Shown here: positions 7,258 through 26,981 of the stretch, in pieces | Numbering within the stretch: position 1 is the stretch's first letter | Layout of the letters: each line of letters opens with the position of its first letter | Translations under genes and position numbers: made by a program | From: Herbiconiux sp. | GTDB taxonomy: Bacteria; Actinomycetota; Actinomycetes; Actinomycetales; Microbacteriaceae | Reading direction: 5' to 3' | DNA length: 43,701 bases | Assembly (NCBI RefSeq): GCF_023264895.1 | Contig: NZ_JAHFUY010000032.1 | Location: 1 to 43,701 of the forward strand | Notes under the pieces: model-generated | What the model was told of the DNA's origin: nothing | Seen by the model: only the letters and a program-made list of their open reading frames with translations | Databases searched by the model: none

Positions 7258-8115
7258 CTACCAGCTCACGACGCCCCGGGCGGCCAGCGTGCCGTCCGGG
7301 GCGAGCGCGAGCACCTCCGTGCTGCCGTCGGGCAGATCGTGGCCCGTGATGGTGATCGGGCGGTCGACGAAGAGCGGCGCCTTGGAGCGGAAGCCGAACG
7401 CGGTCGCGCGGCGCTCCGGATGCGCGGCCGACGCCGCGTCGAGCAGCAGCATCCGGGTGAGCGGGCCGTGCACGAGCAGGTCGTCGAGCCCCTCCACCTC
7501 GCGGGCCCAGGCCCGGTCGTAGTGCACGCGGTGCGTGTTGAAGGTGAGCGCGGAGTACCGGAAGAGGTGGCGCGAGTCGAGCACGCGCTCGTGCCGCCAC
7601 CAGTCTGCGCCGACCTCGACGGGCGCCGGCTGCGCTGTCTCTGCTGCCGGCTGTGTCGCCTGGGCCTGCGCTGCCGGCGCTGCCGGTGCCGCCTCCAGGA
7701 ACACGTCGTGCCACACGCTCCGGATGCGCAGCTCGCCGCCCACCCGGTACTCCCGCACCGCGTCGGCGAACACCAGCCGGCCGCTCCGGCCGTTCTTCTC
7801 GGCCACCTCGCCGAGCACGGTGGTCTGCGTGACCTCCTCGCCGAAGCGCAGCGGCGCCACGAACTCGGTGTCCTCGCCCGCGAACATGCGCCGCGGCAGC
7901 CCGAAGTCGGGGATGACGTCGGCCGTGCCGTCGGGCGAGCCGTCGGCACGCAGCCGGTCGAACGGCTCCGCGAACGGGAAGTACACGCCCTCCCAGCCGG
8001 CGGGCAGCTCACTGCCCGGTCCGGGCGCTGCCGCTGCCGCTGCGAACGTGTCCCGGTACCCGGCCGCGGGCACGAGCCCCAGCACCTCGGTGCGCACCAC
8101 GGAGCTCGCGGCCAT
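7258..8115 (-). CDS. MaoC/FAS1-like two-domain acyl-CoA dehydratase/hydratase
   Basis: A 285-residue protein resembling FAS1-like dehydratase proteins (HTD2 and mesaconyl-/itaconyl-CoA hydratase relatives). An N-terminal hot-dog half (RRMFAGEDTEFVAPLRFGEEVTQTT) and a C-terminal MaoC half (LFRYSALTFNTHRVHYDRAW...LLVHGPLTRMLLLD) are joined by a long Ala/Gln/Pro linker (~145-165). It is expected to add water to, or remove it from, an enoyl/hydroxyacyl-CoA. In this operon the substrate could be 3-methylglutaconyl-CoA/HMG-CoA or itaconyl/mesaconyl-CoA (inference). The ATG overlaps the CoA-transferase stop (TGATG), so it is the last gene of a coupled four-gene operon. A GTG directly upstream is an alternative start. 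Confidence 0.82.
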   Translation of the reverse strand: MAASSVVRTEVLGLVPAAGYRDTFAAAAAAPGPGSELPAGWEGVYFPFAEPFDRLRADGSPDGTADVIPDFGLPRRMFAGEDTEFVAPLRFGEEVTQTTVLGEVAEKNGRSGRLVFADAVREYRVGGELRIRSVWHDVFLEAAPAAPAAQAQATQPAAETAQPAPVEVGADWWRHERVLDSRHLFRYSALTFNTHRVHYDRAWAREVEGLDDLLVHGPLTRMLLLDAASAAHPERRATAFGFRSKAPLFVDRPITITGHDLPDGSTEVLALAPDGTLAARGVVSW

Positions 8116-9368
8116 CACACCACCCCGCGCTCGCGGAGCCCCGCGATCTTCTCCGGCGAGTAGTCGGCGAGTCCCTCGAGCACGATGTCGGAGTGCTCGC
8201 CCATGCGGTTCGCCACCCGGGTGGGGTCGGCGGGCGTGGCGCTGAGCTTCACCGGCTGCCCGAACATGCGCAGCGTGCCGAAGTCGCCGTAGTCGGCCTC
8301 GACCACCATCTCGCGCTCGGCCGTCCCCGGATCCTCGACCACGTCGCCGATCGTCTTCACCGCCGTGAGCGGGATCAGGTCTCCCGCGAGCTCCTCGAGC
8401 TCGACGCGGGTGCGGGAGGCGAACCACGAGGTCACGAGCGGCTTGATGCGGCGCCCGTAGACCTCCTCGTCGAATCGCTTGCGCATGGTGTCGATCTCGG
8501 GGTCGGTCGCGGCCTCCGGCGTGCCGAACAGCTCGCACGACGCGCGCCACAGCTTGTCGGTGTAGCCGCCGAAGAAGACCTGGCCGTCGGCGCAGGGGAA
8601 CAGCTCGTAGGGCCGCACCCACGCGTGGGCGTTGCCCGAGGGCGAGGCCACCGTGCCGTCGACCGTGTAGTCGACGACGGCGGTCTCCGTCATGGCGATG
8701 ATGCTGTCGACCTGCGCCACGTCGACGAGCTGGCCCTCGCCGGTCTGCTCGGCGTGGCGGAGTGCGGCGAGCGTGCCGATCACGCCGAAGAGCGTGGCCG
8801 AGAGGTCGCCGATCGTCACGCCCACCCGCACCGGGGGCTGGTCGGCGTAGCCGTTCATCGACCAGAGGCCGCCCGCGGCCTGGGCGGTGTTGTCGAAGGC
8901 GGGTCGCCGGCTCCGCGAGCCGGTCTGGCCGTAGCCCGAGATGGCCGTGTAGACCAGCCGCGGGTTGATCGCGTGCAGCACCTCGTAGCCGAGCCCGAGC
9001 TTCTCCATCGTGCTGGGGCGGAAGTTCTCCACGAGCACGTCGGCCTTGGCCACGAGGTCGCGCAGCACCTGCTTGCCCTCGTCGCTCTTGAGGTCGAGGG
9101 CGAGGCCCAGCTTGCCGCGGTTGTACTGCGCGTAGTAGCCGCTGAACTCCTCGTCGCCCGAGGTGAGGTAGGGCGGGAAGCCGCGCGAGACATCCGGATC
9201 GGCCGGGTTCTCGATCTTCACCACGGTCGCGCCGAGGTCGGCGAGCATCGTGGCCGCGTAGGGGCCCGCGAGCACGCGCGAGAGGTCGAGCACGAGCACG
9301 CCGCTGAGGGCGCCCGGCGTGGGGGAGAGGGGGCCGGGGAGGAGCGTGAGGGGGCTGGGGGTTGTCAT
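8115..9368 (-). CDS. class III (CaiB/BaiF) acyl-CoA transferase
   Basis: A 417-residue family III CoA-transferase, which moves CoA between carboxylic acids through an aspartyl-CoA anhydride. Visible motifs are VLDLSRVLAGPYAATMLADLGA, VVKIENP, YYAQYNRGKLGLALDLK, LVENFRP and VGVTIGDLSATLFG with the probable nucleophile Asp188. Relatives include SUGCT, which activates glutarate and HMG from succinyl-CoA, and itaconate CoA-transferases. Lying between an HMG-CoA lyase and a MaoC-type hydratase, it plausibly primes a C5-C6 dicarboxylate (inference). The ATG overlaps the lyase stop by four bases (ATGA). A 33-codon upstream extension of the frame is rejected because it runs into the lyase gene. Confidence 0.88.
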   Translation of the reverse strand: MTTPSPLTLLPGPLSPTPGALSGVLVLDLSRVLAGPYAATMLADLGATVVKIENPADPDVSRGFPPYLTSGDEEFSGYYAQYNRGKLGLALDLKSDEGKQVLRDLVAKADVLVENFRPSTMEKLGLGYEVLHAINPRLVYTAISGYGQTGSRSRRPAFDNTAQAAGGLWSMNGYADQPPVRVGVTIGDLSATLFGVIGTLAALRHAEQTGEGQLVDVAQVDSIIAMTETAVVDYTVDGTVASPSGNAHAWVRPYELFPCADGQVFFGGYTDKLWRASCELFGTPEAATDPEIDTMRKRFDEEVYGRRIKPLVTSWFASRTRVELEELAGDLIPLTAVKTIGDVVEDPGTAEREMVVEADYGDFGTLRMFGQPVKLSATPADPTRVANRMGEHSDIVLEGLADYSPEKIAGLRERGVV

Positions 9369-10378
9369 GCGGCTGTTCCTTGCGACGGGTTGCGGGAGGT
9401 CTGCACGGCGGTCTGCGCCTTCACCACGCGGGAGGGCACGGGGCGGCCCAGCTGCGTCGCCATCCACTGCGAGGTGGCGACGAGGGCGTCGAGGTCGAGC
9501 CCCGTCTCGATGCCCATGCCGTGGAGCATCCAGACCAGATCCTCGGTAGCCAGGTTACCGGCGGCCCCCGGGGCGTAGGGGCAGCGGCCGAGGCCGCCCG
9601 TGCTCGCGTCGAACTCGGCGACGCCGAGCTCGAGCGCCGCGAGCACGTTGGCGAGCGAGAGGCCGTAGGTGTCGTGCAGGTGCAGCGCGATGGCGTCCAC
9701 GGGCACGCCCTCGGCCCTCGTGAGCCCGATCATCTGGCGCACGTGGTTCGGGGTGCCGGTGCCGATGGTGTCCGAGAGGGCCACGGTCTCGCAGCCGGCC
9801 GCGTGCAGCCTGCCCGCGAGCTCGGCCACGCGCTCGGGCGCGACGGGCCCCTCCCACGGGTCGCCGAAGCACATCGAGAGGTAGCCGCGCACGGGCACGC
9901 CCTCCTCCGCCGCGCGGGCGGCGACCTCGGCGGCGCGCTCGAGGGAGCCCTCGGCGGTGGTGTTGAGGTTGGCCGCGGCGAAGCTGTCGGTGGCGCTCAC
10001 GACCACCGAGACCGAGCGGATGCCCGCCGCGAGAGCGCGGTCGAGCCCCCGCACGTTGGGCACGAGGGCCACGGTGCGGGCTCGCCCGTCGAGCTCGCCC
10101 GAGGCGGCGAGGGAGGCCACGACCTCCTCGGCGTCGGCGAGCTGCGGGATCCAGGCGGGCGGCACGAAGCTCGTGACCTCGAGCTGCGATACCCCGGCGG
10201 CGAGGAGCCGGCGGCAGAACTCGACCTTGGTGGCGGCGGGGAGGATGTCGGGCTCGGCCTGCAGGCCGTCGCGGGGGCCGACCTCGAACACCCGAACGGC
10301 GGTGGGGAGCGCGCCGCTGAGCGTCGAGGGGGGCGTGGGCTGGGGCCGGGGGAGCCAGAGCGCCTGGTCGCGGGTCAT
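9365..10378 (-). CDS. mvaB: hydroxymethylglutaryl-CoA lyase
   Basis: A 337-residue DRE-TIM metallolyase. The first strand carries FEVGPRDGLQ (Arg36/Asp37, acid-base and metal), followed by KVEFCRRLLAAGVSQLEVTSFV, ALSDTIGTGTPNHV, the metal-binding HLHDTYG, and the loop GGLGRCPYAPGAAGN whose Cys is essential in characterised lyases (family GGLGGCPYA). It would split HMG-CoA into acetyl-CoA and acetoacetate. A Pro-rich N-terminal extension of ~25 residues precedes the barrel. Its ATG lies 4 nt after the HMG-CoA reductase stop and its stop overlaps the CoA-transferase start, so the genes are co-translated. Activity on a related 3-hydroxyacyl-CoA cannot be excluded. Confidence 0.9.
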   Translation of the reverse strand: MTRDQALWLPRPQPTPPSTLSGALPTAVRVFEVGPRDGLQAEPDILPAATKVEFCRRLLAAGVSQLEVTSFVPPAWIPQLADAEEVVASLAASGELDGRARTVALVPNVRGLDRALAAGIRSVSVVVSATDSFAAANLNTTAEGSLERAAEVAARAAEEGVPVRGYLSMCFGDPWEGPVAPERVAELAGRLHAAGCETVALSDTIGTGTPNHVRQMIGLTRAEGVPVDAIALHLHDTYGLSLANVLAALELGVAEFDASTGGLGRCPYAPGAAGNLATEDLVWMLHGMGIETGLDLDALVATSQWMATQLGRPVPSRVVKAQTAVQTSRNPSQGTAA

Positions 10379-10382
10379 CCGC

Positions 10383-11663
10383 TCAGCCCACCGGCGAGCC
10401 GGCGCGGAGCTCGGCCAGCACGGCCTGGGCGTGGTCGAGCCGGATGCGCTTCTCGCTCACGATGCGGGCGGCCACCGCCCCCACCTCGTCGGCCGTCGCC
10501 CCGGCCGAGGCCGCGATGGTGCGGGCGTGCAGGGTCATGTGGCCGCGCTGGATGCCTTCGGCGGCCAGCGCGCGGCACGCGGCGAGGTTCTGCGCGAGCC
10601 CCACGGCGGCGATCACGCCGGCGAGCTCGGCGGCCGTCTCCACGCCCAGCAGCGTCACCGCCGCCTGCGCCACGGGGTGCACGCGGGTGGCGCCGCCCAC
10701 GAGGCCCACCGCGAGCGGCACCTCGAGGGTGCCCACGAGGTTGCCGTCGGCGTCCTTCTCGAAGCGCGAGAGCGCGGTGTAGCCGCCGTCGCGGGCGGCG
10801 TGCGAGTGGCAGCCCGCCTCGACCGCACGCGTGTCGTTGCCGGTCGCGAGCACCACGGCGGTGATGCCGTTCATGATGCCCTTGTTGTGCGTGGCAGCGC
10901 GATACGGGTCGGCGGTGGCGAAGGCGCTCGCGCGCACGATGTCGTCCACAACGTCGGGCCCACCGAGCAGCTCGGCGTCGAACACGCCCCGCACCCGGGT
11001 GATGCGGCGGTCGGCCTTGTTGCTGAGGATGCGCAGGAGCGCCCGCCCGCCGCTGAGTTCGGCGAGACGAGGAGCGAGGGCCTCGGCCATCGTGTTGACG
11101 GCGTTGGCGCCCATGGCGTCGCGCACGTCGACGATGAGGTGGGCGATCACGTGCACCCCGGTCGAGGTGGGCACGAGCCGCACCTCGAGGTCGCGCGCGC
11201 CGCCGCCGAGGCTCACGAGCATCGGGTCCTGGGCGTCGGCCGTGGCGAGCAGCTCGTCCCGGGCCTCGAGCAGCCGGAGCCTGGCGCCGTCGGGGTCGAC
11301 GGTGTCGACGAGCTGGATCTGGGCGATCATCACGTCGCCCGTGGTCGAGGTGCGGAAACCGCCGTGCACGCGCGCCATGCGGGCCGCGTTCGAGGCCGCG
11401 GCCACGACGCTCGGCTCCTCGGTGGCCATCGGCACGAGGTAGTCGCGGTCGTTCACGCGCAGGTTGGTGGCGACCCCCACGGGGATGCCGATCACACCGA
11501 TGGCGTTCTCGATCATGTGGTCGGCCTTCTCCACGCCGAGCCCGTTCTCCGGGTCGAGCGCCTCGAGCACGGACTCGTCGATCCCGGCGTTCGAGGCCAC
11601 GACGGCCCGTCGTTCGCGGGGAGTCGAGTCACGCAGGCCAGGGATGCGGCTGTTGATCGCCAA
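10383..11663 (-). CDS. mvaA: hydroxymethylglutaryl-CoA reductase, class II (degradative type)
   Basis: A 426-residue cytosolic class II HMG-CoA reductase. Catalytic features match the Pseudomonas mevalonii enzyme: EEPSVVAAASNAARM (Glu ~82-83), THNKGIMNG (Lys), GNDTRA (Asp) and RGHMTLHARTIA with the late His. Class II enzymes mostly oxidise mevalonate to HMG-CoA with NAD+, feeding the adjacent lyase. No HMG-CoA synthase or mevalonate kinase is nearby, which favours catabolism over isoprenoid synthesis. The start is a TTG, supported by a strong GAGGAGG ribosome site at 11668-11674. First gene of the four-gene operon. A 146-bp gap with a 12-bp palindrome separates it from the PucR-type regulator upstream. 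Confidence 0.92.
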   Translation of the reverse strand: MAINSRIPGLRDSTPRERRAVVASNAGIDESVLEALDPENGLGVEKADHMIENAIGVIGIPVGVATNLRVNDRDYLVPMATEEPSVVAAASNAARMARVHGGFRTSTTGDVMIAQIQLVDTVDPDGARLRLLEARDELLATADAQDPMLVSLGGGARDLEVRLVPTSTGVHVIAHLIVDVRDAMGANAVNTMAEALAPRLAELSGGRALLRILSNKADRRITRVRGVFDAELLGGPDVVDDIVRASAFATADPYRAATHNKGIMNGITAVVLATGNDTRAVEAGCHSHAARDGGYTALSRFEKDADGNLVGTLEVPLAVGLVGGATRVHPVAQAAVTLLGVETAAELAGVIAAVGLAQNLAACRALAAEGIQRGHMTLHARTIAASAGATADEVGAVAARIVSEKRIRLDHAQAVLAELRAGSPVG

Positions 11664-11667
11664 TGAT

Positions 11668-11674
11668 CCTCCTC
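11668..11674 (-). promoter_or_regulatory. strong ribosome-binding site for TTG start of mvaA
   Basis: GAGGAGG on the minus strand, 4 nt before the TTG. No ATG or GTG in frame is placed as well. Confidence 0.7.
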
Positions 11675-11757
11675 AGCGGATGCGGGCCGGCCTCTGCGCC
11701 GGCGCCACACGCATCGCGCTCCTACGACGGTATCGACAGGGATCACGGCGCCCTATG

Positions 11758-11769
11758 GAGCGATCGCTC
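11758..11769. promoter_or_regulatory. 12-bp perfect palindrome upstream of HMG-CoA operon
   Basis: GAGCGATCGCTC is self-complementary and lies ~95 bp before the mvaA start, in the gap behind the PucR gene. Its GCGATCG core recurs in the palindrome at 13815-13829. Candidate binding site for the cluster regulator. Confidence 0.4.
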
Positions 11770-11809
11770 ACGCATCCGGGGAGATCATGGAGGAATCACC
11801 CATGCGCCG

Positions 11810-13783
11810 TCAGCGTGGCGGTGCCGCGCCGACGAGCTGATCACGGAGCTCGTCGAGGCGCACGGCGATGCCGAGTCGGAAGAGCCGCTCGTCACCCCGC
11901 CAGTCGTCGCCGAGCACGCGGTCGAGCCGGTCGAGGCGCTGCAGGATCGTGTTGGTGTGGAAGGTGAGGTGCCGGGCCGTGCGGGTGGGGCTCGCGTTGC
12001 AGCGCACGAAGGCGCGGAGGGTGCGGAGGAGCTCGGTGCCCCGGTCGTCGTCGTAGCGCCGCACAGCGCCGATGGTGCCGTCGATGAAGGAGCGGAGCGC
12101 CCGCTCGTCGGTGTCGAGGACGGCCGAGTAGGGCAGGTAGTCGTCGGTGTCGGCGAGGAGGTCGTCGACCCCGAGCGCGGCGAGCAGGCGCGCGGTGCGG
12201 CGTGCGGCCTCGAACGCTGAGACGAGGTCGGCAGAGCGCGGGGCCCGCACGGCGAGAACCGGAGCGCTGACGGCCGCGGCGGCGCGCATCCGGAGCTCGT
12301 CGGCGCCTGGGGCTGCCGGCTGGGGGTCGGGGCCCCCGGCGGCGTCGCGAGGCCCGCCGTCAGGAACCGATCCGGAACCCGGGGCGAGCACCACCACGAG
12401 CCCGTTGTACTCGCCCACGAGGCCGCGCGGCCCCACGAGCCCGGCGAGGGCGCGCGAGGCGGCGGCCCGGTGCTCCCCGGGCACCGAGAAGGCGGTGAGC
12501 GAGTCGAGCTCGTCGACCACCACGCCGAGCCTCCTGGCACGGCGCTCCACGTCGCCCCGCCGCTGCGGGTCGGCCGCCAGCAGCTCGGCCACGAGCTCGC
12601 TCTGCACCCGGTGCTCGGCCTCGGCGACGGCCTGCTGCTGCAGGGCGAGGAGTGCACCCACCTGGGCGGCGCGCTCGATGGTGCGGCGGTCGACGGGGCC
12701 GAGCGCGAACTCGCCGTCGCCGAGCAGCACGGCGCCGAAGCGCTGGGTGCCGGCCACGAGCGCCGACACCGCGCGCACCGCGCCCTGCTCGCCGAGCAGC
12801 ACGCAGTGCCCCGAGTGCCGGCTCTCCTCCACCGCCGCCCTGGTCTCCGCGTCGAGCTCGAGCGCGCCCCGGTCGAGGAAGCCGCCCGCGGCCGCGATCA
12901 CGACGCCGTGCTCGTCGATCACCGCGACGGCCCGGCGGAGGGCCGACGAGAGGGTGCCGGCGAGCGGGGCGAAGCCGCCGCCCGCGAGCACCGCGTGCAC
13001 GAGCTCCTGGTGCACGGTGTTCGAGCGGTCGCGCTCGGCGAGGTGCTCGGTGAGCCGGTCGAGGGCGCGCCTCGCCTCGTCCTCCGAGCGCTGCAGGCTC
13101 CGCAGGGTGCGGGCGGTCTGCAGCACGATCGAGGCGTGGTCGGCGAGGGCCGAGAGCAGCGCGATCTGCTCGGGCGCGAAGCTGTACTCGGCGCGGGTGG
13201 CCACGAACAGCACGCCGAGCACGTCGTCGCCCGAGAGCATCGGCACGCCGAGCATCGAGACGATCCCCTCGGCGTTGACCGCGGCGTCGATCGAGGGGTC
13301 GTGCCGCTCCTCGCGGTACTCGTCGTAGCGCAGCACGGTGAGCGGTGCCCGCGTCTCGACCACGACGCTCGCGAGTCCCCGCCCGGGCGGCACCCGCAGC
13401 GTGCGGAAGGCGGGGCTCACCGATCCGGTCGTGGTGCGCACGTTGAGCTCCCGGGTCACCGGGTCGAACTCGGAGAGGTAGGTGAGGTCGCTGCCCATCA
13501 TGTCGTGGGCGCGCTCCACGAGCCGGTCGAGCAGCGCGGCGCTCTCGCGCACCTCCGCGAGCTCGCGCGCACTCGAGAAGAGCGCCGTGAGCTCCTGCTC
13601 GCGCCGCCGCAGCCGCACGTGCTCGCGCTGGGCGCGGCCCACGGCGTCGGCGAGCCGGCGTCCGTCGTCGCCCACGATGCCCACGGCCGCGAGGGCGTCG
13701 TAGAGCTCCGCCGTGCTGCGGCCGGAGTCGCCCTGGGCGGCCTCCAGCAGTGTGGTCACGGCGGTCGTGGCGTCGATGCTCAT
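11810..13783 (-). CDS. PucR family transcriptional regulator with GAF domain
   Basis: A 657-residue cytosolic regulator. Residues ~45-220 hold a GAF-type sensor domain (LLDRLVERAHDMMGSDLTYLSEFDP...EGIVSMLGVPMLSGDDVLGVLFVA). A central region with GGDEF-like character typical of CdaR/PucR proteins follows, and the C-terminal ~65 residues are the PucR helix-turn-helix (FVRCNASPTRTARHLTFHTNTILQRLDRLDRVLG). Such proteins usually activate nearby catabolic genes in response to a substrate or CoA ester. It lies between the HMG-CoA operon (same strand, downstream) and the divergent MHS transporter, so control of both is likely. The start is the ATG before SIDATTAV, where an AATGAT box ends 6 nt upstream; the longer frame would add 15 residues. 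Confidence 0.85.
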   Translation of the reverse strand: MSIDATTAVTTLLEAAQGDSGRSTAELYDALAAVGIVGDDGRRLADAVGRAQREHVRLRRREQELTALFSSARELAEVRESAALLDRLVERAHDMMGSDLTYLSEFDPVTRELNVRTTTGSVSPAFRTLRVPPGRGLASVVVETRAPLTVLRYDEYREERHDPSIDAAVNAEGIVSMLGVPMLSGDDVLGVLFVATRAEYSFAPEQIALLSALADHASIVLQTARTLRSLQRSEDEARRALDRLTEHLAERDRSNTVHQELVHAVLAGGGFAPLAGTLSSALRRAVAVIDEHGVVIAAAGGFLDRGALELDAETRAAVEESRHSGHCVLLGEQGAVRAVSALVAGTQRFGAVLLGDGEFALGPVDRRTIERAAQVGALLALQQQAVAEAEHRVQSELVAELLAADPQRRGDVERRARRLGVVVDELDSLTAFSVPGEHRAAASRALAGLVGPRGLVGEYNGLVVVLAPGSGSVPDGGPRDAAGGPDPQPAAPGADELRMRAAAAVSAPVLAVRAPRSADLVSAFEAARRTARLLAALGVDDLLADTDDYLPYSAVLDTDERALRSFIDGTIGAVRRYDDDRGTELLRTLRAFVRCNASPTRTARHLTFHTNTILQRLDRLDRVLGDDWRGDERLFRLGIAVRLDELRDQLVGAAPPR

Positions 13784-13814
13784 GGGTACATCATTCACCG
13801 GAACGAACGAATGG

Positions 13815-13829
13815 TGTGCGATCGGCACA
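13815..13829. promoter_or_regulatory. palindrome in the pucR/MHS transporter divergent promoter region
   Basis: TGTGC-gatcg-GCACA: perfect 5-bp arms. It sits near the -35 zone of the leaderless pucR promoter and ~45 bp upstream of a TAGTCT box (13854-13859) facing the transporter gene. Candidate operator for autoregulation and transporter control. Confidence 0.45.
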
Positions 13830-13925
13830 TGGGAGGCCGACGGGCGTCGTGGTTAGTCTGGGGCCGCGCCACCGCGCATCCGCTTCCCGCACCACGGCTC
13901 GCCCCCGCACCAAGGCCCTACGCAC

Positions 13926-13932
13926 GAAGGAG
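13926..13932 (+). promoter_or_regulatory. ribosome-binding site of MHS transporter
   Basis: GAAGGAG lies 4 nt before the ATG at 13937 and fixes that start within a much longer open frame. Confidence 0.6.
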
Positions 13933-13936
13933 TGTC

Positions 13937-15340
13937 ATGGCAGTTCACAACGACATCGACGCGGCAGGACTCGACTCCCGCCAGCAGCGTCGTCACGCCA
14001 TCATCGGAAGCTCGGTCGGCACCGTCATCGAGTGGTACGACTTCATGCTCTACGGCCTCGCATCGGCGCTCGTGTTCGCGCCCCTCTTCTTCGGCGACGG
14101 CGGTGTGGCCGGCACGCTCGGTGCGTTCGCGACCTTCGCCGTGGGCTTCGGCGCCCGCCCGATCGGCGGCCTGATCTTCGCCCACTTCGGCGACAAGGTG
14201 GGGCGGAAGGCGACCCTCCTCGTGACGCTGCTCACCATGGGCATCGCGACGACGCTGATCGGCCTGCTGCCGACCACGGAGTCCATCGGCATCTGGGCTC
14301 CGATCGCCCTCATCGTGCTGCGCATCTTCCAGGGCGCGGGCGCCGGCGCCGAGTTCGCCGGGGCGATGACCATGGCGAGCGAGTCGGCCGGCACCAAGAA
14401 CCGCGCCTTCACGGCGGGCTTCCCGGGCGGCGCCGTCTACGTGGGCATGGCGCTCGCCACGGCCACCTTCGCCATCCTCACCGCCGTCATGCCGCCCGAG
14501 GTGTTCCTCGCCTGGGGCTGGCGGCTGCCCTTCATCGCGAGCATCGTGATCGTGGCCTTCGCGCTCTACTTCCGCCTGCGGGTGAAGGAGACGGCCGCGT
14601 TCGAGCACGCCGAGCAGGAGGGCGTCGTGAAGAGCGCCCCGCTCGTCGAGGCCGTGCGCAGCCACTGGCGGGTGCTGCTGCCCGGCATGGCGCTGTTCGT
14701 CTTCGCGCTGCCGTGGGTCTACGTGGTGCAGACGTTCTCGATCTCGTACATGACCGGCACGCTCACCGTGGAGCCCACCTCGGCACTCATCGGCCTGATC
14801 GTGGCCGAGCTCCTCACCATCCCCGCCGCCCTGCTGTTCGGCAGGCTCGCCGACCGGATCGGCCGGAAGCCCGTGCTCATCGGGGCCGCGATCTTCGCGA
14901 TCGTCTTCGCCTACCCGATGTTCATGCTCTATCTCACCGAGTCGACCATCCTCATCGGGATCGGCCTCGTGCTCGGCCTCGCGATCATCCAGGGCGCCAC
15001 CATCGGCGTCTCGGCGGCACTCCTGGCCGAGGTGTTCCCCACGAACATGCGCTGGTCGGGCATCGCCATCTCCCGCGAGATCCCCGCCGCGCTCGTGGGC
15101 GGCACCGCCCCGCTCGTGGCCACCTGGCTCGTCTCGATCTCCGGCGGCACGCCGTGGCTCGTGGCCGGCTACCTCGTGGTGCTCAGCGTGATCGGGCTGA
15201 TCGGCATCATGTTCCTGCCCGAGACCCTGCAGAAGGCGGGCCAGGCGCGCACCGGCTCGTTCGCCGAGTCGGATGCGAAGGCGGAGGCGGCCGAAGAGGC
15301 CCGCGCCTCGCAGCGGGCACGGGCCTCCTCGCGGGGGTAG
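13937..15340 (+). CDS. MFS transporter, metabolite:H+ symporter (MHS) type
   Basis: A 467-residue twelve-helix carrier of the MHS branch (shikimate/alpha-ketoglutarate/proline-betaine permease relatives). Diagnostic are IGSSVGTVIEWYDFMLYG in helix 1, GFGARPIGGLIFAHFGDKVGRKATLL (motif A with GDKVGRK) and RIFQGAGAGAEFAGAMTMASE. It would import an organic acid with a proton. Divergent from the PucR regulator and flanking the HMG-CoA operon, it is a good candidate for uptake of the substrate degraded there, perhaps mevalonate or HMG (inference). The last ~30 residues are a charged cytosolic tail rich in Ala/Glu/Arg. Confidence 0.88.
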   Translation: MAVHNDIDAAGLDSRQQRRHAIIGSSVGTVIEWYDFMLYGLASALVFAPLFFGDGGVAGTLGAFATFAVGFGARPIGGLIFAHFGDKVGRKATLLVTLLTMGIATTLIGLLPTTESIGIWAPIALIVLRIFQGAGAGAEFAGAMTMASESAGTKNRAFTAGFPGGAVYVGMALATATFAILTAVMPPEVFLAWGWRLPFIASIVIVAFALYFRLRVKETAAFEHAEQEGVVKSAPLVEAVRSHWRVLLPGMALFVFALPWVYVVQTFSISYMTGTLTVEPTSALIGLIVAELLTIPAALLFGRLADRIGRKPVLIGAAIFAIVFAYPMFMLYLTESTILIGIGLVLGLAIIQGATIGVSAALLAEVFPTNMRWSGIAISREIPAALVGGTAPLVATWLVSISGGTPWLVAGYLVVLSVIGLIGIMFLPETLQKAGQARTGSFAESDAKAEAAEEARASQRARASSRG

Positions 15341-20397: not shown

Positions 20398-21318
20398 GTG
20401 GCCGCTCCGGTGGCGTCCGTCTTCGCGTTCGAGGCGATCGGCACCTCGTGGCAGATCGAGACCCCCGCGCCGCTGCGTTCCTCTGAGAAGGCCGCTGTAC
20501 TCTCGCGCATCGAGGAGTTCGACCGGGTGTACTCGCGCTTCCGCGACGACTCGCTCGTCACGGCGATCGCCTCGGCCGAGACCGCGGGCAGCTACGAGTT
20601 CCCGGCCGACTCCGCCGTGCTGTTCGAGCTCTACGACCGGCTCGCAGCGGCCACGGCCGGTGCCGTCGACCCGCTCGTGGGGCGCGACCTCGAGCTGCTC
20701 GGCTACGACCGCGACTACTCGCTGCGGCCTGCGTCGGATGCTGGGCCGATCCCGGCTCAGGGTTCGGGTTCGTTCGCGCGCTCCGCCTGGGCCACCGATG
20801 TCACCCGGCACGGCCGCACCATCACCACGGCTCCGGCGGTCATCGACGTGGGCGCCGCCGGCAAGGGCTACCTCGTCGACCTCGTGGCGGGCGTGCTGCG
20901 CGGGCACGGTCACGCCGAGTTCGTGGTGGATGCCAGTGGCGACCTGGTGCACGCGGGCCCGGCGTCCGTGCGGATCGGCCTGGAGCATCCGCTCGACCCT
21001 TCGAAGGCCATCGGGGTCGCGACCCTCGAGAACGCGTCGCTTTGCGCCTCCGCGAGCAACCGCCGTGCCTGGGGCGACGGGCTCCACCACATCGTCGACG
21101 GCCGCACAGGCAGCCCGGCGCGCGAGGTCATCGCGACCTGGGTCGTCACGAACGGCACCGGATCCGCACCCACCGCCCTGGCCGACGGACTCGCCACCGC
21201 CCTCTTCTTCACCGGCGCGCACCGCCTCGCCGAGACATTCCACTTCAGCTATGTACGCATGTACGCCGACGGCCGCGCGGAGATCTCGCGCGACTTCCCA
21301 GGGGAGCTCTTCACATGA
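20398..21318 (+). CDS. apbE: FAD:protein FMN transferase (ApbE family)
   Basis: A 306-residue flavinyltransferase that takes FMN from FAD and links it to a Thr/Ser of target proteins. Family blocks are seen: EAIGTSWQIE near the start, IEEFDRVYSRFRDDSLV, DVGAAGKGYLVDLV, FVVDASGDLVHAG and TALADGLATALFFTG (metal-binding Asp region). The first codon is taken as the GTG 2 bp after the FMN-lipoprotein stop; the longer open frame to the left is a shadow. No signal peptide is evident, so the mature location is uncertain; many ApbE proteins are exported. The stop overlaps the next start by ATGA, so the three redox genes form one operon. The likely substrate is the lipoprotein encoded just upstream. 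Confidence 0.88.
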   Translation: MAAPVASVFAFEAIGTSWQIETPAPLRSSEKAAVLSRIEEFDRVYSRFRDDSLVTAIASAETAGSYEFPADSAVLFELYDRLAAATAGAVDPLVGRDLELLGYDRDYSLRPASDAGPIPAQGSGSFARSAWATDVTRHGRTITTAPAVIDVGAAGKGYLVDLVAGVLRGHGHAEFVVDASGDLVHAGPASVRIGLEHPLDPSKAIGVATLENASLCASASNRRAWGDGLHHIVDGRTGSPAREVIATWVVTNGTGSAPTALADGLATALFFTGAHRLAETFHFSYVRMYADGRAEISRDFPGELFT

Positions 21319-22826
21319 AAGCACGACTCGACACGCTGATCGGCCGCATCACGATGTACAACCTCATCGTGGTGGCGCTCGTCGCCATCGCGGTGGTCGC
21401 GCTCATCGGCAGTCTCGTGGGCCAGATCTTCTACAGCCCGCTCGCGCTCCTGGCGAGCATCGCGGTGGCCGTCGTCGCGACGGTGATCTCGAGCTGGCTC
21501 TTCGCCCGGCTCTTCCGTACCGTGCCGCACCTGCCGTCGGCCGTCATCACCGGGCTGCTGATCTTCTTCGTCTTCATCCCCACCGCCGATCCGGGCGGCC
21601 TCGCGCTGCTCGCGCTCACGGCGGTCGTGGCATCGGCGTCGAAGTTCCTCATCGCCATCCGGGGCCGGCACCTGCTGAACCCGGTGGCGGCCGCCGCCGT
21701 CGTCATGTCGGTCACCACGCTGAACCCTTCGGGCTGGTGGGTGGCGACCCCGCTGCTGCTGCCGTTCGTGGCGATCGGCGCGTTCCTCGTGCTCTACCGC
21801 ACGCGCAAGCTCACGCTCGGCGTCGGGTTCATCGTGGTGGCCACCCTGCTCATCACGGGGCGCATGATGCTGCTCGGAACCGCCGCTCCGGATGCGCTCT
21901 GGCTCGCGCTGGGGTCGTTCCCGGTGGTGTTCCTCGCCGGCTTCATGCTGAGCGAGCCGCTCACACTGCCGCCGCGCCGGTGGCAGCAGTTCGCGGTGGC
22001 GGGGGTGGTGGCCGTGCTGCTGTCGTTCCCGTTCCAGATCGGGCCCGTCTACTCCTCGCCCGAGATCGCTCTCGTGGTGGGCAACATCGTGGCGTTCACC
22101 TTCGGGCAGCGGCGGGGTGTGCGGATGCGCTACCTCGGCTCGCGCGCGCTCACCCCCACGAGCGCGGCGTTCGACTTCGAGCCTTCGGCACCGGTGCGGT
22201 TCGTGCCGGGGCAGTACCTCGAGCTGGCGCTGCCGCACCGGAAGGTCGACTCGCGGGGCACGCGACGGATGTTCAGCATCGCGTCGGGTGCGTCGGCGTC
22301 GGCCGCCCCTCTCAGTGTGGGGGTGAAGCTCTCGGATCCGTCGAGCTCGTTCAAGACGGCGCTCGTGGGGCTCGAGCGGGGTGCGTCGGTGCGGGCAACG
22401 TGGGTCGGAGGCGACTTCCTGCTGCCGGCCGACACCTCGGTTCCGCTGCTGCTGGCGGCGGGCGGCATCGGTGTGACCCCGTTCGTGTCGCAGCTCCTGG
22501 GCCGTGATGGCGGGTCGGAGCCCTCCGACGTGGTGCTGGTGTACTCGGTGTCGGGGCCCGACGAGCTCGCGTTCCTGCCGGAGCTCGCGGCCACGGGCAT
22601 CCGGGTGCTCGTGTTGGCGCCCATGCGGCCGGAGGGGCTGCCCGAGCATTGGGAGTACCTCGGCTCGGGCCGGGTGACCGCCGAGCTGCTCCGCACGGCG
22701 GTGGGCGACGTGGAGTCGCGTCGCGCCTACGTCTCGGGCCCTCCCGGCTACGTCGACCACGTGTCGACGGAGCTCCGCAAGGCGGGCGCCCGCCGCATCC
22801 GCACGGACCAGTTCGCCGGGTACTGA
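21315..22826 (+). CDS. NqrB/RnfD-like membrane protein fused to FAD/NAD ferredoxin-reductase domain
   Basis: A 503-residue fusion. Residues ~14-265 contain about nine hydrophobic helices related to NqrB/RnfD, including AIRGRHLLNPVAAAAVVMS (family HLFNPSA-like region). Residues ~270-503 form an FNR-type reductase: FVPGQYLEL, RRMFSIAS (FAD, 317-324), LLLAAGGIGVTPF (NAD(P)H, 378-390) and the C-terminal YVSGPPGYV (472-480). No Cys-rich Fe-S motif is seen. It should accept electrons from NAD(P)H in the cytosol and move them across the membrane, probably to the FMN-lipoprotein encoded two genes upstream (inference). Four-base overlap with apbE. A C-rich/G-rich hairpin follows the stop. Confidence 0.87.
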   Translation: MKARLDTLIGRITMYNLIVVALVAIAVVALIGSLVGQIFYSPLALLASIAVAVVATVISSWLFARLFRTVPHLPSAVITGLLIFFVFIPTADPGGLALLALTAVVASASKFLIAIRGRHLLNPVAAAAVVMSVTTLNPSGWWVATPLLLPFVAIGAFLVLYRTRKLTLGVGFIVVATLLITGRMMLLGTAAPDALWLALGSFPVVFLAGFMLSEPLTLPPRRWQQFAVAGVVAVLLSFPFQIGPVYSSPEIALVVGNIVAFTFGQRRGVRMRYLGSRALTPTSAAFDFEPSAPVRFVPGQYLELALPHRKVDSRGTRRMFSIASGASASAAPLSVGVKLSDPSSSFKTALVGLERGASVRATWVGGDFLLPADTSVPLLLAAGGIGVTPFVSQLLGRDGGSEPSDVVLVYSVSGPDELAFLPELAATGIRVLVLAPMRPEGLPEHWEYLGSGRVTAELLRTAVGDVESRRAYVSGPPGYVDHVSTELRKAGARRIRTDQFAGY

Positions 22827-25370: not shown

Positions 25371-26981
25371 CTAGTGCACCCGCACGCCCCCGAGCCAGGT
25401 CTGCTCGACCGTGAGCTGCGGCAGCTCCTCGACGCTCACGGCGGAGGGGTCGGCCGAGAGCACCACGAGGTCGGCGAGCTTGCCCACCTCGAGGCTGCCC
25501 ACCTCGTGCTCGCTGAACAGCTGCCAGGCGGCTCCGAGCGTCTGCGCCCGCAGCGCCTCGTCGAAGCTCACGCCGTCGGCTCCGGGCAGGCGCCGGCCGC
25601 CGCGCGTGGTGCGGGTCATCGCCACCGCCATGTTGCGGAGCGGCTCGGCGGGGGTCACGGTGCCGTCGTTGTGCAGCGAGATCTCGAGCCCCGAGTCCAG
25701 CGCGGCCCGCGCGTTCGCCCAGGGCCCGCCGTGCTCGGCGCCGAACAGCTCGTCGACGAGCACGTCGCCCCAGTAGTACACGTGGTCGATGAGCAGGCTG
25801 ACGGTGGCCCCGAGCTCGGCCGCGCGCGCGAACTGGGTGGGCGTCATGGCGCCCACGTGCTCCATCCGCAGCCGGTGGTCGCTCCGCGGATGCCGCTCGA
25901 GCATCGCCTCCCATGTGTCGAGCACGCGGTCGATGGCGAGGTCGCCGTGCACGTGGCAGGCGAGCTGCCAGCCCTCGGGGAAGTACTGCTCGACCACCTC
26001 GTCGAGCTGCGCCCGGGTGTAGTTGGCCGAGCCGTGCGATCCGGGCTCGACCCCGATCGAGCGGGTCCCTTCGGTGTCGAGGTAGGGGAACGAGATGAGG
26101 ATGTTGCCGACCCACGGCGATCCGTCGGCCCACGTCTTCACCCCGGTCTGCCGCACGAGGGCGTCGCCGTTGGCCACGGGCACGGAGGCGTGGGCTCCTG
26201 GCGCCGACATCTCGTAGAGGCGCAGTCGCGCCGTGAGTCCGGCGGCGGCGCGGGTCGCGTCGAGAGCGGGCTGCTTGGCGTGGTCCCAGCTCATGTCGCT
26301 CACCGTCGTGATGCCCACGGCGTTCAGCGAGCCGAGGTACTGCGCGAGGAGTGCCGGCAGCTCGTGGGCCGCCTCGCCGAGCACCGGGCTGAGCAGCGCG
26401 AATACGGTGCCCACCTCGAAGCCCTTGCCCGTGAGCTCGCCCGCTGCATCCTTGTCCCAGTGCGATCCCACGGGGTCGGGGGAGTCGCGCGTGACGCCGG
26501 AGCGCGCCGCGGCCGCGGAGTTGAAGTAGACGACGTGGCCCGAGTTGTGCAGGATGACGAGCGGTGCGCCTCGCCCCCAGTCGTCGAGCTCGGCGAGGGT
26601 GGGATCGGTGAGGCCCGTCTGCAGGAGGCCGTCCCAGCCGTTGAACACGACGCCCTCCGGATGCGCGGTGACGCCGTCGCGGATCGCCGCGCGCACCCCG
26701 TCGGCCGTCGGCAGCGTCACGGGGCGGATGTCGATCATGAAGTGGCTGAGCACCACGGCGGTGTCGCTCGGGTGCCCGTGCGCCTCGACGAAGCCGGGCA
26801 GGAGGGCGCGCTCGCCGAGGAGGACGGTCTCGAGCTGGTCGCCTGCGGTGACGGCGGCGCGCACCTCGGCCTCGGATCCCACGGCGGCGATCGTGCCGTC
26901 GCGCACGAGGAGGGCCTTGGCGCGGGGGCGGGCGTCGTCGACGGTGAGGACGGTTCCCAGGAAGAGGGTCTCGGAGGTCAT
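25371..26981 (-). CDS. amidohydrolase family protein (YtcJ-like, amidohydrolase_3)
   Basis: A 536-residue metal-dependent hydrolase. N-terminal beta-sandwich (LFLGTVLTVDDARPRAKALLVRDGTIAAVG), then a TIM barrel with the metal-binding LPGFVEAHGHPSD, the lysine-site analogue region around TGVKTWADGS, CHVHGDLAIDRVLDTW, HRLRMEHVGAM and the C-terminal ISLHNDGTVTPAEPLRNMAVAMTR (metal Asp). The family includes N-substituted formamide deformylases and many enzymes of unknown substrate. There is no signal peptide. A TACAGT box ends 6 nt before the ATG, pointing to a leaderless mRNA. The MarR gene follows on the same strand and may respond to its substrate (inference). Confidence 0.88.
   Translation of the reverse strand: MTSETLFLGTVLTVDDARPRAKALLVRDGTIAAVGSEAEVRAAVTAGDQLETVLLGERALLPGFVEAHGHPSDTAVVLSHFMIDIRPVTLPTADGVRAAIRDGVTAHPEGVVFNGWDGLLQTGLTDPTLAELDDWGRGAPLVILHNSGHVVYFNSAAAARSGVTRDSPDPVGSHWDKDAAGELTGKGFEVGTVFALLSPVLGEAAHELPALLAQYLGSLNAVGITTVSDMSWDHAKQPALDATRAAAGLTARLRLYEMSAPGAHASVPVANGDALVRQTGVKTWADGSPWVGNILISFPYLDTEGTRSIGVEPGSHGSANYTRAQLDEVVEQYFPEGWQLACHVHGDLAIDRVLDTWEAMLERHPRSDHRLRMEHVGAMTPTQFARAAELGATVSLLIDHVYYWGDVLVDELFGAEHGGPWANARAALDSGLEISLHNDGTVTPAEPLRNMAVAMTRTTRGGRRLPGADGVSFDEALRAQTLGAAWQLFSEHEVGSLEVGKLADLVVLSADPSAVSVEELPQLTVEQTWLGGVRVH

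Follow-up and report, generated by a model that had tools for sequence, protein, structure and literature searches.

Mevalonate is reportedly degraded in Pseudomonas mevalonii through the mvaA-mvaB operon. CaiB and CaiD interconvert carnitine and crotonobetaine in a cycle that returns CoA from the product to the substrate, and the Ict-Ich-Ccl proteins of P. aeruginosa degrade itaconate. Here we investigated a six-gene module of Herbiconiux sp. that shares features with these systems, located at positions 7258 to 15340 of a 43,701-nt stretch of DNA (contig NZ_JAHFUY010000032.1, assembly GCF_023264895.1; hereafter the window). It encodes a 3-hydroxy-3-methylglutaryl-CoA (HMG-CoA) reductase (HMGR), an HMG-CoA lyase (HMGL), a CoA-transferase (CaiB), a hydratase (MaoC), a regulator and a symporter. 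We found that CaiB and the hydratase are not passengers of this locus: the pair is dependent on HMGR, which it most likely feeds. At what we judge to be close to an even chance, the module represents an extended mevalonate-catabolic operon in which CaiB and the hydratase would turn anhydromevalonate into mevalonate, a siderophore acyl group being the likely source. The genes are as follows.

10383..11663, minus strand: class II (degradative-type) HMGR, proposed to catalyze the NAD+-dependent reaction (R)-mevalonate + CoA -> (S)-HMG-CoA (TIGR00532, 1qax alignment)
9365..10378, minus strand: HMGL (HMGL-like TIM barrel), predicted to cleave HMG-CoA into acetyl-CoA and acetoacetate (NF004283, human 2cw6)
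8115..9368, minus strand: CaiB, a class III (CaiB/BaiF/FRC-type) CoA-transferase, proposed mevalonyl-CoA:anhydromevalonate CoA-transferase (PF02515, co-occurrence with HMGR)
7258..8115, minus strand: MaoC, a FAS1-DH/MaoC-like hydratase, proposed anhydromevalonyl-CoA hydratase (PF13452, 8khg/8huc)
11810..13783, minus strand: GAF-PucR regulator, proposed to act on the module (GAF and HTH_30 domains)
13937..15340, plus strand: MHS-type metabolite:H+ symporter that likely imports the acid (TIGR00883, below cut-off)

The six genes, their order, their tight spacing and the divergent symporter had been described in the initial annotation, and all were present in the sequence. The HMGR and HMGL genes are separated by 4 nt, HMGL and CaiB overlap by 4 nt, and CaiB and MaoC overlap by 1 nt (TGATG). 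HMGR is preceded, 146 nt upstream, by the GAF-PucR gene, from which the MHS symporter gene diverges with a spacing of 153 nt. The HMGR start is a TTG with GAGGAG upstream, and the alignment with 1qax begins at residue 1 in both proteins; a codon-usage gene caller placed the start at an internal GTG (11600) instead. A search of genomes for the six-gene neighborhood, suggested by the same annotation, recovered the arrangement in G058 (L098) and G143 (L103), with proteins 53-81% identical, and this recurrence indicates that the arrangement is not due to chance. Gene calls in relatives were made with our own codon-usage caller and are not curated annotation.

The HMGR-HMGL pair had been proposed to degrade mevalonate, and our analysis gave this good support. 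HMGR scored 438 bits against TIGR00532 (cut-off 260), and its closest solved structures were degradative-type enzymes (6dio, 440 bits, and 1qax of P. mevalonii, 422 bits). It aligned end to end with 1qax. The motifs EEPS, THNKGIMNGI, ATGND and QRGHMxLHAR are kept, as is an Asp (position 146); these residues have roles in catalysis and NAD use. HMGL scored 339 bits against the HMG-CoA lyase subfamily NF004283 (cut-off 246) and 256 bits against human HMG-CoA lyase (2cw6), with HDTYG and CPYAxGAxGN, presumably functional motifs, both kept. The genome to which the window belongs (3.95 Mb, 92% complete) carries a single HMGR; in this 92% complete sequence there was no match to HMG-CoA synthase (PF08540) and no mevalonate kinase over the TIGR00549 cut-off (best 48.9 of 163 bits), and the reductoisomerase DXR of the methylerythritol phosphate (MEP) pathway was found. 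Since HMGR aligns with that of P. mevalonii, HMGL adjoins it, DXR is present, and neither the synthase nor the kinase was found, interpretation of the two genes as a mevalonate-catabolic core of the P. mevalonii type is well supported. The opposite case foreseen by the initial annotation, a biosynthetic reductase with other mevalonate-pathway genes elsewhere, is rejected for this 92% complete genome on the missing synthase and kinase matches together with DXR.

HMGRs approximately 50% identical to that of the window were found in 6 of 249 genomes of the family and 2 of 396 genomes of the phylum, in all eight cases beside a mevalonate kinase over the cut-off. Five of these kinase-linked HMGRs formed a separate, fully supported group in an HMGR tree (FastTree), in which the HMGR of G298 grouped with two Nocardia HMGRs. 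The four genomes of genus g50 (G050, G120, G175 and G224, for example G175:C6:358231-363599) had DXR, HMG-CoA synthase and mevalonate kinase over the cut-off plus a separate catabolic HMGR. In six others (G064, G075, G138, G190, G335 and G357), mevalonate kinase adjoins a class II HMGR and DXR gave no match (E <= 1e-3); isoprenoid synthesis there apparently relies on mevalonate only. Some HMGR genes looked broken or mis-sequenced (G808:C1:373100-374324 and G745:C1:4196703-4197971; two-piece match, one in-frame TGA).

The dependence of the CaiB-hydratase pair on HMGR emerged from two genome samples drawn from larger groups, in which CaiB was counted at E <= 1e-100. Among 249 genomes of the family, catabolic HMGR (74-79% identical), CaiB (80-85%) and MaoC (56-60%) were found, each including the window's own copy, in the identical seven genomes, which belong to four of the 85 genera sampled (p = 5e-7 in a Fisher test by genus). 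The class sample (394 genomes) added eight CaiB genomes, and all eight had a catabolic HMGR (66-80%), in pieces in G772 and G808. HMGR was thus present in 15 of 15 CaiB genomes in the two samples together, and no CaiB-hydratase pair without HMGR was found in either of them. The reverse does occur: a CaiB ortholog of at least 59% identity was present in 10 of 25 HMGR genomes searched, the next best match being 42% (L030, with a 62% HMGR, and L053 were left out of this search). HMGR without CaiB was seen in G298, two Nocardia and Rhodococcus erythropolis, as well as in 11 searched genomes with HMGRs at most 60% identical (G1003-G1013).

Physical linkage was looser than co-occurrence. In the g50 genomes, CaiB-MaoC (L155-L158) is unlinked from HMGR-HMGL (L099-L102); the distance is 1.8 Mb on one contig in G120 and G224, and the two lie on separate contigs in G050 and G175. 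G120 and G050 have an additional CaiB-crotonase pair 12 kb from HMGR. HMGL was not beside HMGR in 6 of 20 HMGR-CaiB-hydratase loci (L020, L025, L027, L166, L169 and L171). Near-copy loci are included in these comparisons (the g50 species, L021/L172 and L167/L168). Because the pair tracks HMGR while HMGL is missing beside 6 of the 20 loci, we consider that the pair most likely feeds HMGR; a dependence stronger on HMGR than on HMGL is explained only by a product that must pass through HMGR.

The accessory genes may be part of the same unit. A PucR-type homolog (at least 30% identical) was found in 18 of 20 HMGR-CaiB loci. The symporter scored 369 bits against TIGR00883, below the cut-off of 443, and, among the loci fetched, its orthologs of 69-77% identity occurred only in CaiB-MaoC genomes; those of g50 adjoin CaiB-MaoC and not HMGR. 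In G298, the two Nocardia and R. erythropolis, which have HMGR without CaiB, HMGR adjoins HMGL and a transporter of the TctA type, a family assignment checked in L032 and L026.

The pairing of CoA-transferase and hydratase is kept whichever hydratase fold is used. A hydratase lay within 3.5 kb of all 29 CaiB orthologs of at least 58% identity, being of the MaoC type in 16 and of the crotonase type in 13 (a MaoC or crotonase homolog of at least 40% was counted, one 30% hit was kept apart, and the repeat loci L173-L175 were dropped). In the CaiB tree, obtained by a quick IQ-TREE search, the crotonase-paired group sits on one side of a branch, and G050, G120, G772 and G978 each have one MaoC-type and one crotonase-type CaiB pair. 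The MaoC of the window scored 25 bits against PF13452 (cut-off 22), and its only PDB relatives at E <= 0.001 were 8khg (itaconyl-CoA hydratase) and 8huc (a MaoC_dehydrat_N domain protein), at 113-114 bits. In an alignment with 13 relatives, the Thr, Asn, His, His-Tyr-Asp-Arg and His-Gly-Pro-Leu positions were invariant.

These distributions bear on another explanation, namely that the locus serves plain mevalonate or mevalonolactone catabolism and the pair is accessory, for example recovering 3-methylglutaconyl-CoA formed by dehydration of HMG-CoA. The core genes would suffice for mevalonate use, HMGR-HMGL-TctA loci without CaiB do exist, and a repair role would likewise depend on HMGR. However, the pair is present in 10 of 13 named genomes (L018-L028, L031 and L032), and two of these, Agrococcus and Brevibacterium aurantiacum, have two HMGRs each, with the CaiB-hydratase pair located beside the second (L171, L172) and not the TctA-type one. 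In addition, the pairing is maintained when the hydratase type switches. We therefore regard this explanation as improbable.

The sequence of CaiB places it in its family. It scored 401 bits against PF02515 and fell under every NCBIfam cut-off matched: 318 bits (cut-off 700) for the best model, the succinyl-CoA:mesaconate CoA-transferase equivalog, 282 bits (cut-off 750) for the glutarate/SUGCT equivalog NF052585, and 143 bits (cut-off 413) for the carnitine CoA-transferase NF002914. The closest solved structure was a chain named formyl-CoA transferase (219 bits). The FD..QA motif of CaiB, whose Asp we take to be the catalytic residue, aligns with the YD..Q motif of solved relatives.

The initial annotation had tentatively linked transferase and hydratase to itaconate or to HMG and 3-methylglutaconate. 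The pair tracks HMGR in 15 of 15 genomes, HMGL is missing at 6 of 20 loci, and the equivalog scores are low; these roles appear weaker because both predict dependence on the lyase and not on HMGR. For 3-methylglutaconate, CaiB would activate this acid (and HMG), the hydratase would deliver HMG-CoA to HMGL, and HMGR would be a parallel entry for mevalonate, with the acid perhaps derived from methylglutaconyl groups of fungal siderophores. All of this chemistry would meet at HMG-CoA, HMGL is beside 14 of 20 HMGR-CaiB loci, and the SUGCT structures 9br6 and 9br7 match CaiB at 196-197 bits; furthermore, methylglutaconyl is among the acyl groups that have been tested in work on ferrichrome-type siderophores of fungi (PMC10500206). 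Against this, HMGR would not be needed, yet it accompanies CaiB in 15 of 15 genomes, the lyase-free loci keep HMGR, CaiB and hydratase, the g50 pair lies away from HMGL, and three PDB sequences outscore SUGCT for CaiB. We consider this explanation unlikely, while giving it some weight.

In an itaconate-type pathway, transferase and hydratase would form itaconyl-CoA and then citramalyl-CoA, and the HMGL-like protein would be a citramalyl-CoA lyase. The named PDB relative of the hydratase (itaconyl-CoA hydratase, 114 bits) and the mesaconate model that best matches CaiB point in this direction. HMGR would nevertheless be left without a role, the lyase is over the HMG-CoA lyase subfamily cut-off, and CaiB is far under the equivalog cut-offs. 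No CitE-type lyase was found among the 27 window proteins scanned (Pfam, E <= 0.001), to which this search was confined, and distant MaoC homologs (34-39%), whose itaconate type is a guess only, occurred in six family genomes, none of which has a catabolic HMGR. An itaconate pathway is thus very improbable.

The reading that we favor, hydration of anhydromevalonate to mevalonate, supposes that the starting compound is a C6 acid with an alpha,beta double bond. Anhydromevalonate (5-hydroxy-3-methylpent-2-enoate) is the most likely one, because its hydration gives mevalonate, which HMGR takes in free form. The chain would run through anhydromevalonyl-CoA and mevalonyl-CoA to mevalonate. CaiB would charge anhydromevalonate with CoA taken from mevalonyl-CoA or, for priming, from some other donor. 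The hydratase would add water to anhydromevalonyl-CoA to form mevalonyl-CoA, and CaiB would release free mevalonate while charging the next substrate molecule with CoA. Mevalonate would then be converted by HMGR into HMG-CoA, and HMGL, encoded at the locus or elsewhere in the genome, would produce acetyl-CoA and acetoacetate. PucR may control the set, and the MHS symporter may import the acid. The likely natural source would be the acyl group of hydroxamate siderophores of fungi, the fusarinines and coprogens, which carry N5-anhydromevalonyl-N5-hydroxyornithine. In fungi, SidI and SidH convert mevalonate into anhydromevalonyl-CoA, the reverse of the steps proposed here (PMC3709128), and the anhydromevalonyl group is placed on N5-hydroxyornithine (PMC3709128, PMC10500206).

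The link to siderophores rests on relatives of the window, since in the window itself the genes concerned do not adjoin the module. In G772 (L161), HMGL, CaiB, MaoC, an FMN_bind_2 gene, ornithine cyclodeaminase and two Amidohydro_3 genes follow one another in this order, with 4-nt overlaps from HMGL to the cyclodeaminase, and G978 (L163) has an identical gene row. The G772 cyclodeaminase scored 530 bits against its equivalog (cut-off 350) and 382 bits against 1u7h. The same enzyme is encoded 11 kb from HMGR in G058, adjoining an FMN_bind_2 gene, and 21 kb from HMGR in G943 (542 bits); the loci in which it was seen were L161, L163, L194 and L176. In all four g50 genomes (L155-L158), CaiB-MaoC is divergent from two FecCD genes, an ATPase and Peripla_BP_2, components of a siderophore importer (assigned by Pfam for L155, L156 and some of L158, and by homology in all four), and iron-box-like sites resembling DtxR boxes, with two mismatches, lie upstream of the g50 binding-protein gene. 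Close to HMGR or CaiB-MaoC, an Amidohydro_3 ortholog (AMH3, at least 55% identical) was found in 12 loci, not counting L175, a repeat of L103; none of them is of the TctA or crotonase type. With ornithine cyclodeaminase, amidohydrolases and a siderophore importer linked to the set in some relatives, gene context suggests fungal hydroxamate siderophores as the source of the acid.

The FMN_bind_2 (PaiB-like) gene recurs beside HMGL, MaoC, HMGR or ornithine cyclodeaminase (L161:3244-3882, L100:11400-12074 and L169:6883-7521) and could possibly encode an N-hydroxyornithine or hydroxamate reductase. An Opp-type ABC transporter, a second Amidohydro_3, an M20 amidohydrolase and an FAD amine oxidase lie near the module in varying combinations in L098, L100, L161 and L194.

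We tentatively put forward, as a possible extension, a bacterial pathway for eating the anhydromevalonyl half of fungal hydroxamate siderophores, in which amidohydrolases would free anhydromevalonate and N5-hydroxyornithine, ornithine would be converted into proline by the cyclodeaminase, the acid would pass through the CoA cycle to HMGR-HMGL, and the two hydratases would handle cis and trans acyl groups. The acyl group has the trans form in coprogens. HMGR accepts one mevalonate enantiomer, and the MaoC-type and crotonase folds are usually opposite in facial selectivity. Since both hydratases must yield the one enantiomer, MaoC and crotonase would serve cis and trans substrates, and these two substrate forms could account for the existence of both. 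Cis and trans anhydromevalonyl forms are reported (PMC10500206, PMC12278577), the cis form in the fusarinine pathway (PMC12278577).

Alternatively, the pair may hydrate another branched unsaturated acid that gives mevalonate or another HMGR substrate, derived from terpenoids or from some natural product other than siderophores. Hydantoinase-type HyuA/HyuB and an SMP-30 lactonase-like gene in crotonase-type loci, which have no obvious place in siderophore breakdown, are consistent with this. Several MaoC-type loci, however, contain genes for ornithine cyclodeaminase and amidohydrolases, which suggest an acyl-ornithine, and we consider such an acid decidedly improbable. The HyuA/HyuB genes (caprolactamase-like, under cut-off) directly adjoin CaiB-crotonase in L019, L021, L022, L028 and L172; they might open the ring of a lactam, lactone or diketopiperazine.

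Several observations weigh against anhydromevalonate and a siderophore source. The substrate is deduced from gene context, and no free anhydromevalonate pool was documented in the literature examined. The closest named solved relative of MaoC is an itaconyl-CoA hydratase. The crotonase matched fungal SidH (7oeq) at 125 bits, but SidH ranked only 33rd of 66 PDB matches, and its likeness was therefore rejected as proof of crotonase function. Four other sampled genomes of the window's genus lack this HMGR type, CaiB and MaoC. The dependence on HMGR could stem from genomes that specialize on HMG-CoA-related acids, and the compared genomes are not independent. No ornithine cyclodeaminase match was found in the window genome, and neither FecCD nor an AMH3 ortholog in the window, to which the search for these two was confined; nor did the window contain an iron box when up to 4 mismatches to a single consensus were allowed. 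Ornithine cyclodeaminase occurred in 35 of 249 family genomes, namely in 5 of 7 genomes with CaiB and in 30 of the 242 without (p = 7e-4 by genome). Four of the five genomes belong to one genus, however, and p was 0.20 by genus; the enzyme was thus dropped as a genome-wide correlate, and only its gene position was used. FecCD is also present in three HMGR loci without CaiB (L053, L106 and L109), for which reason the importer by itself is not significant and was not taken as stand-alone evidence, and it lies near only one second CaiB lineage (G962, 7-9 kb away).

The other genes of the window do not appear to extend the module. The neighboring genes for a Rieske-FAD protein, a carboxylesterase, a glycine transporter, ApbE, the 21315-22826 protein, a photolyase and GH15 were unmatched in all other loci (E <= 1e-15), and an SDR gene had one 54% match (L171) and weaker ones; with matches absent or rare, these genes were not counted as parts of the module. 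An Amidohydro_3 gene of the window (25371-26981) lies about 10 kb from the MHS gene and is only about 27% identical to one module-linked Amidohydro_3. The open reading frame at 9-1679 gave matches to two domains, one of glycosyl hydrolase family 8 and one of the sortase type.

If correct, the proposed pathway would explain the presence of degradative HMGRs in certain Actinobacteria and Proteobacteria, and would provide a genetic route for recycling the carbon of fungal siderophores, a way for bacteria to feed on them. Siderophore consumption could then be traced in genomes, and such a trait can alter iron competition among fungi, bacteria and plants. As candidate markers, HMGR-HMGL-TctA would indicate use of mevalonate and HMGR-CaiB-hydratase use of anhydromevalonate.

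Growth on hydroxamate siderophores is reported for ferrichrome A with Pseudomonas FC1 and for desferrioxamine with Azospirillum and Mesorhizobium (PMC10866069, PMC11800396). Apo-siderophores serve as food there, as proposed here; the attack reported, however, breaks peptide or amide bonds and spares the hydroxamate, and no anhydromevalonyl route was met in the text consulted (PMC10866069, PMC11800396). The fungal SidI/SidH system shares the chain of mevalonate, mevalonyl-CoA and anhydromevalonyl-CoA; it differs in being fungal and biosynthetic, in running in the opposite direction and in having the CoA ligase SidI in place of a CoA-transferase (PMC3709128). SidH matches the crotonase variant by sequence.

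The core is of the known P. mevalonii type. The literature, thinly covered, yielded nothing specific on bacterial catabolism of mevalonate or anhydromevalonate and no description of a CaiB-hydratase extension, a weak negative on which it only tentatively appears that the extension is new. The Ict-Ich-Ccl system shares with the module a CoA-transferase, a MaoC/FAS1-like hydratase and a lyase, whereas the module has HMGR and HMG-CoA lyase, no CitE-type lyase found in the window, and a hydratase of low similarity. CaiB/CaiD likewise combines a class III CoA-transferase with a hydratase, so that an unsaturated acid is hydrated by way of its CoA ester, and the crotonase-type loci share the CaiD fold; in contrast, other substrates are proposed here, the hydratase of the window is of the MaoC type, and the pair is tied to HMGR. 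With the mvaA-mvaB operon of P. mevalonii the module shares a class II HMGR adjoining HMG-CoA lyase and, as proposed here, the route from mevalonate through HMG-CoA to acetyl-CoA and acetoacetate, to which it adds the CaiB-hydratase pair, an extension that is co-inherited with HMGR, together with its GAF-PucR regulator and MHS symporter.

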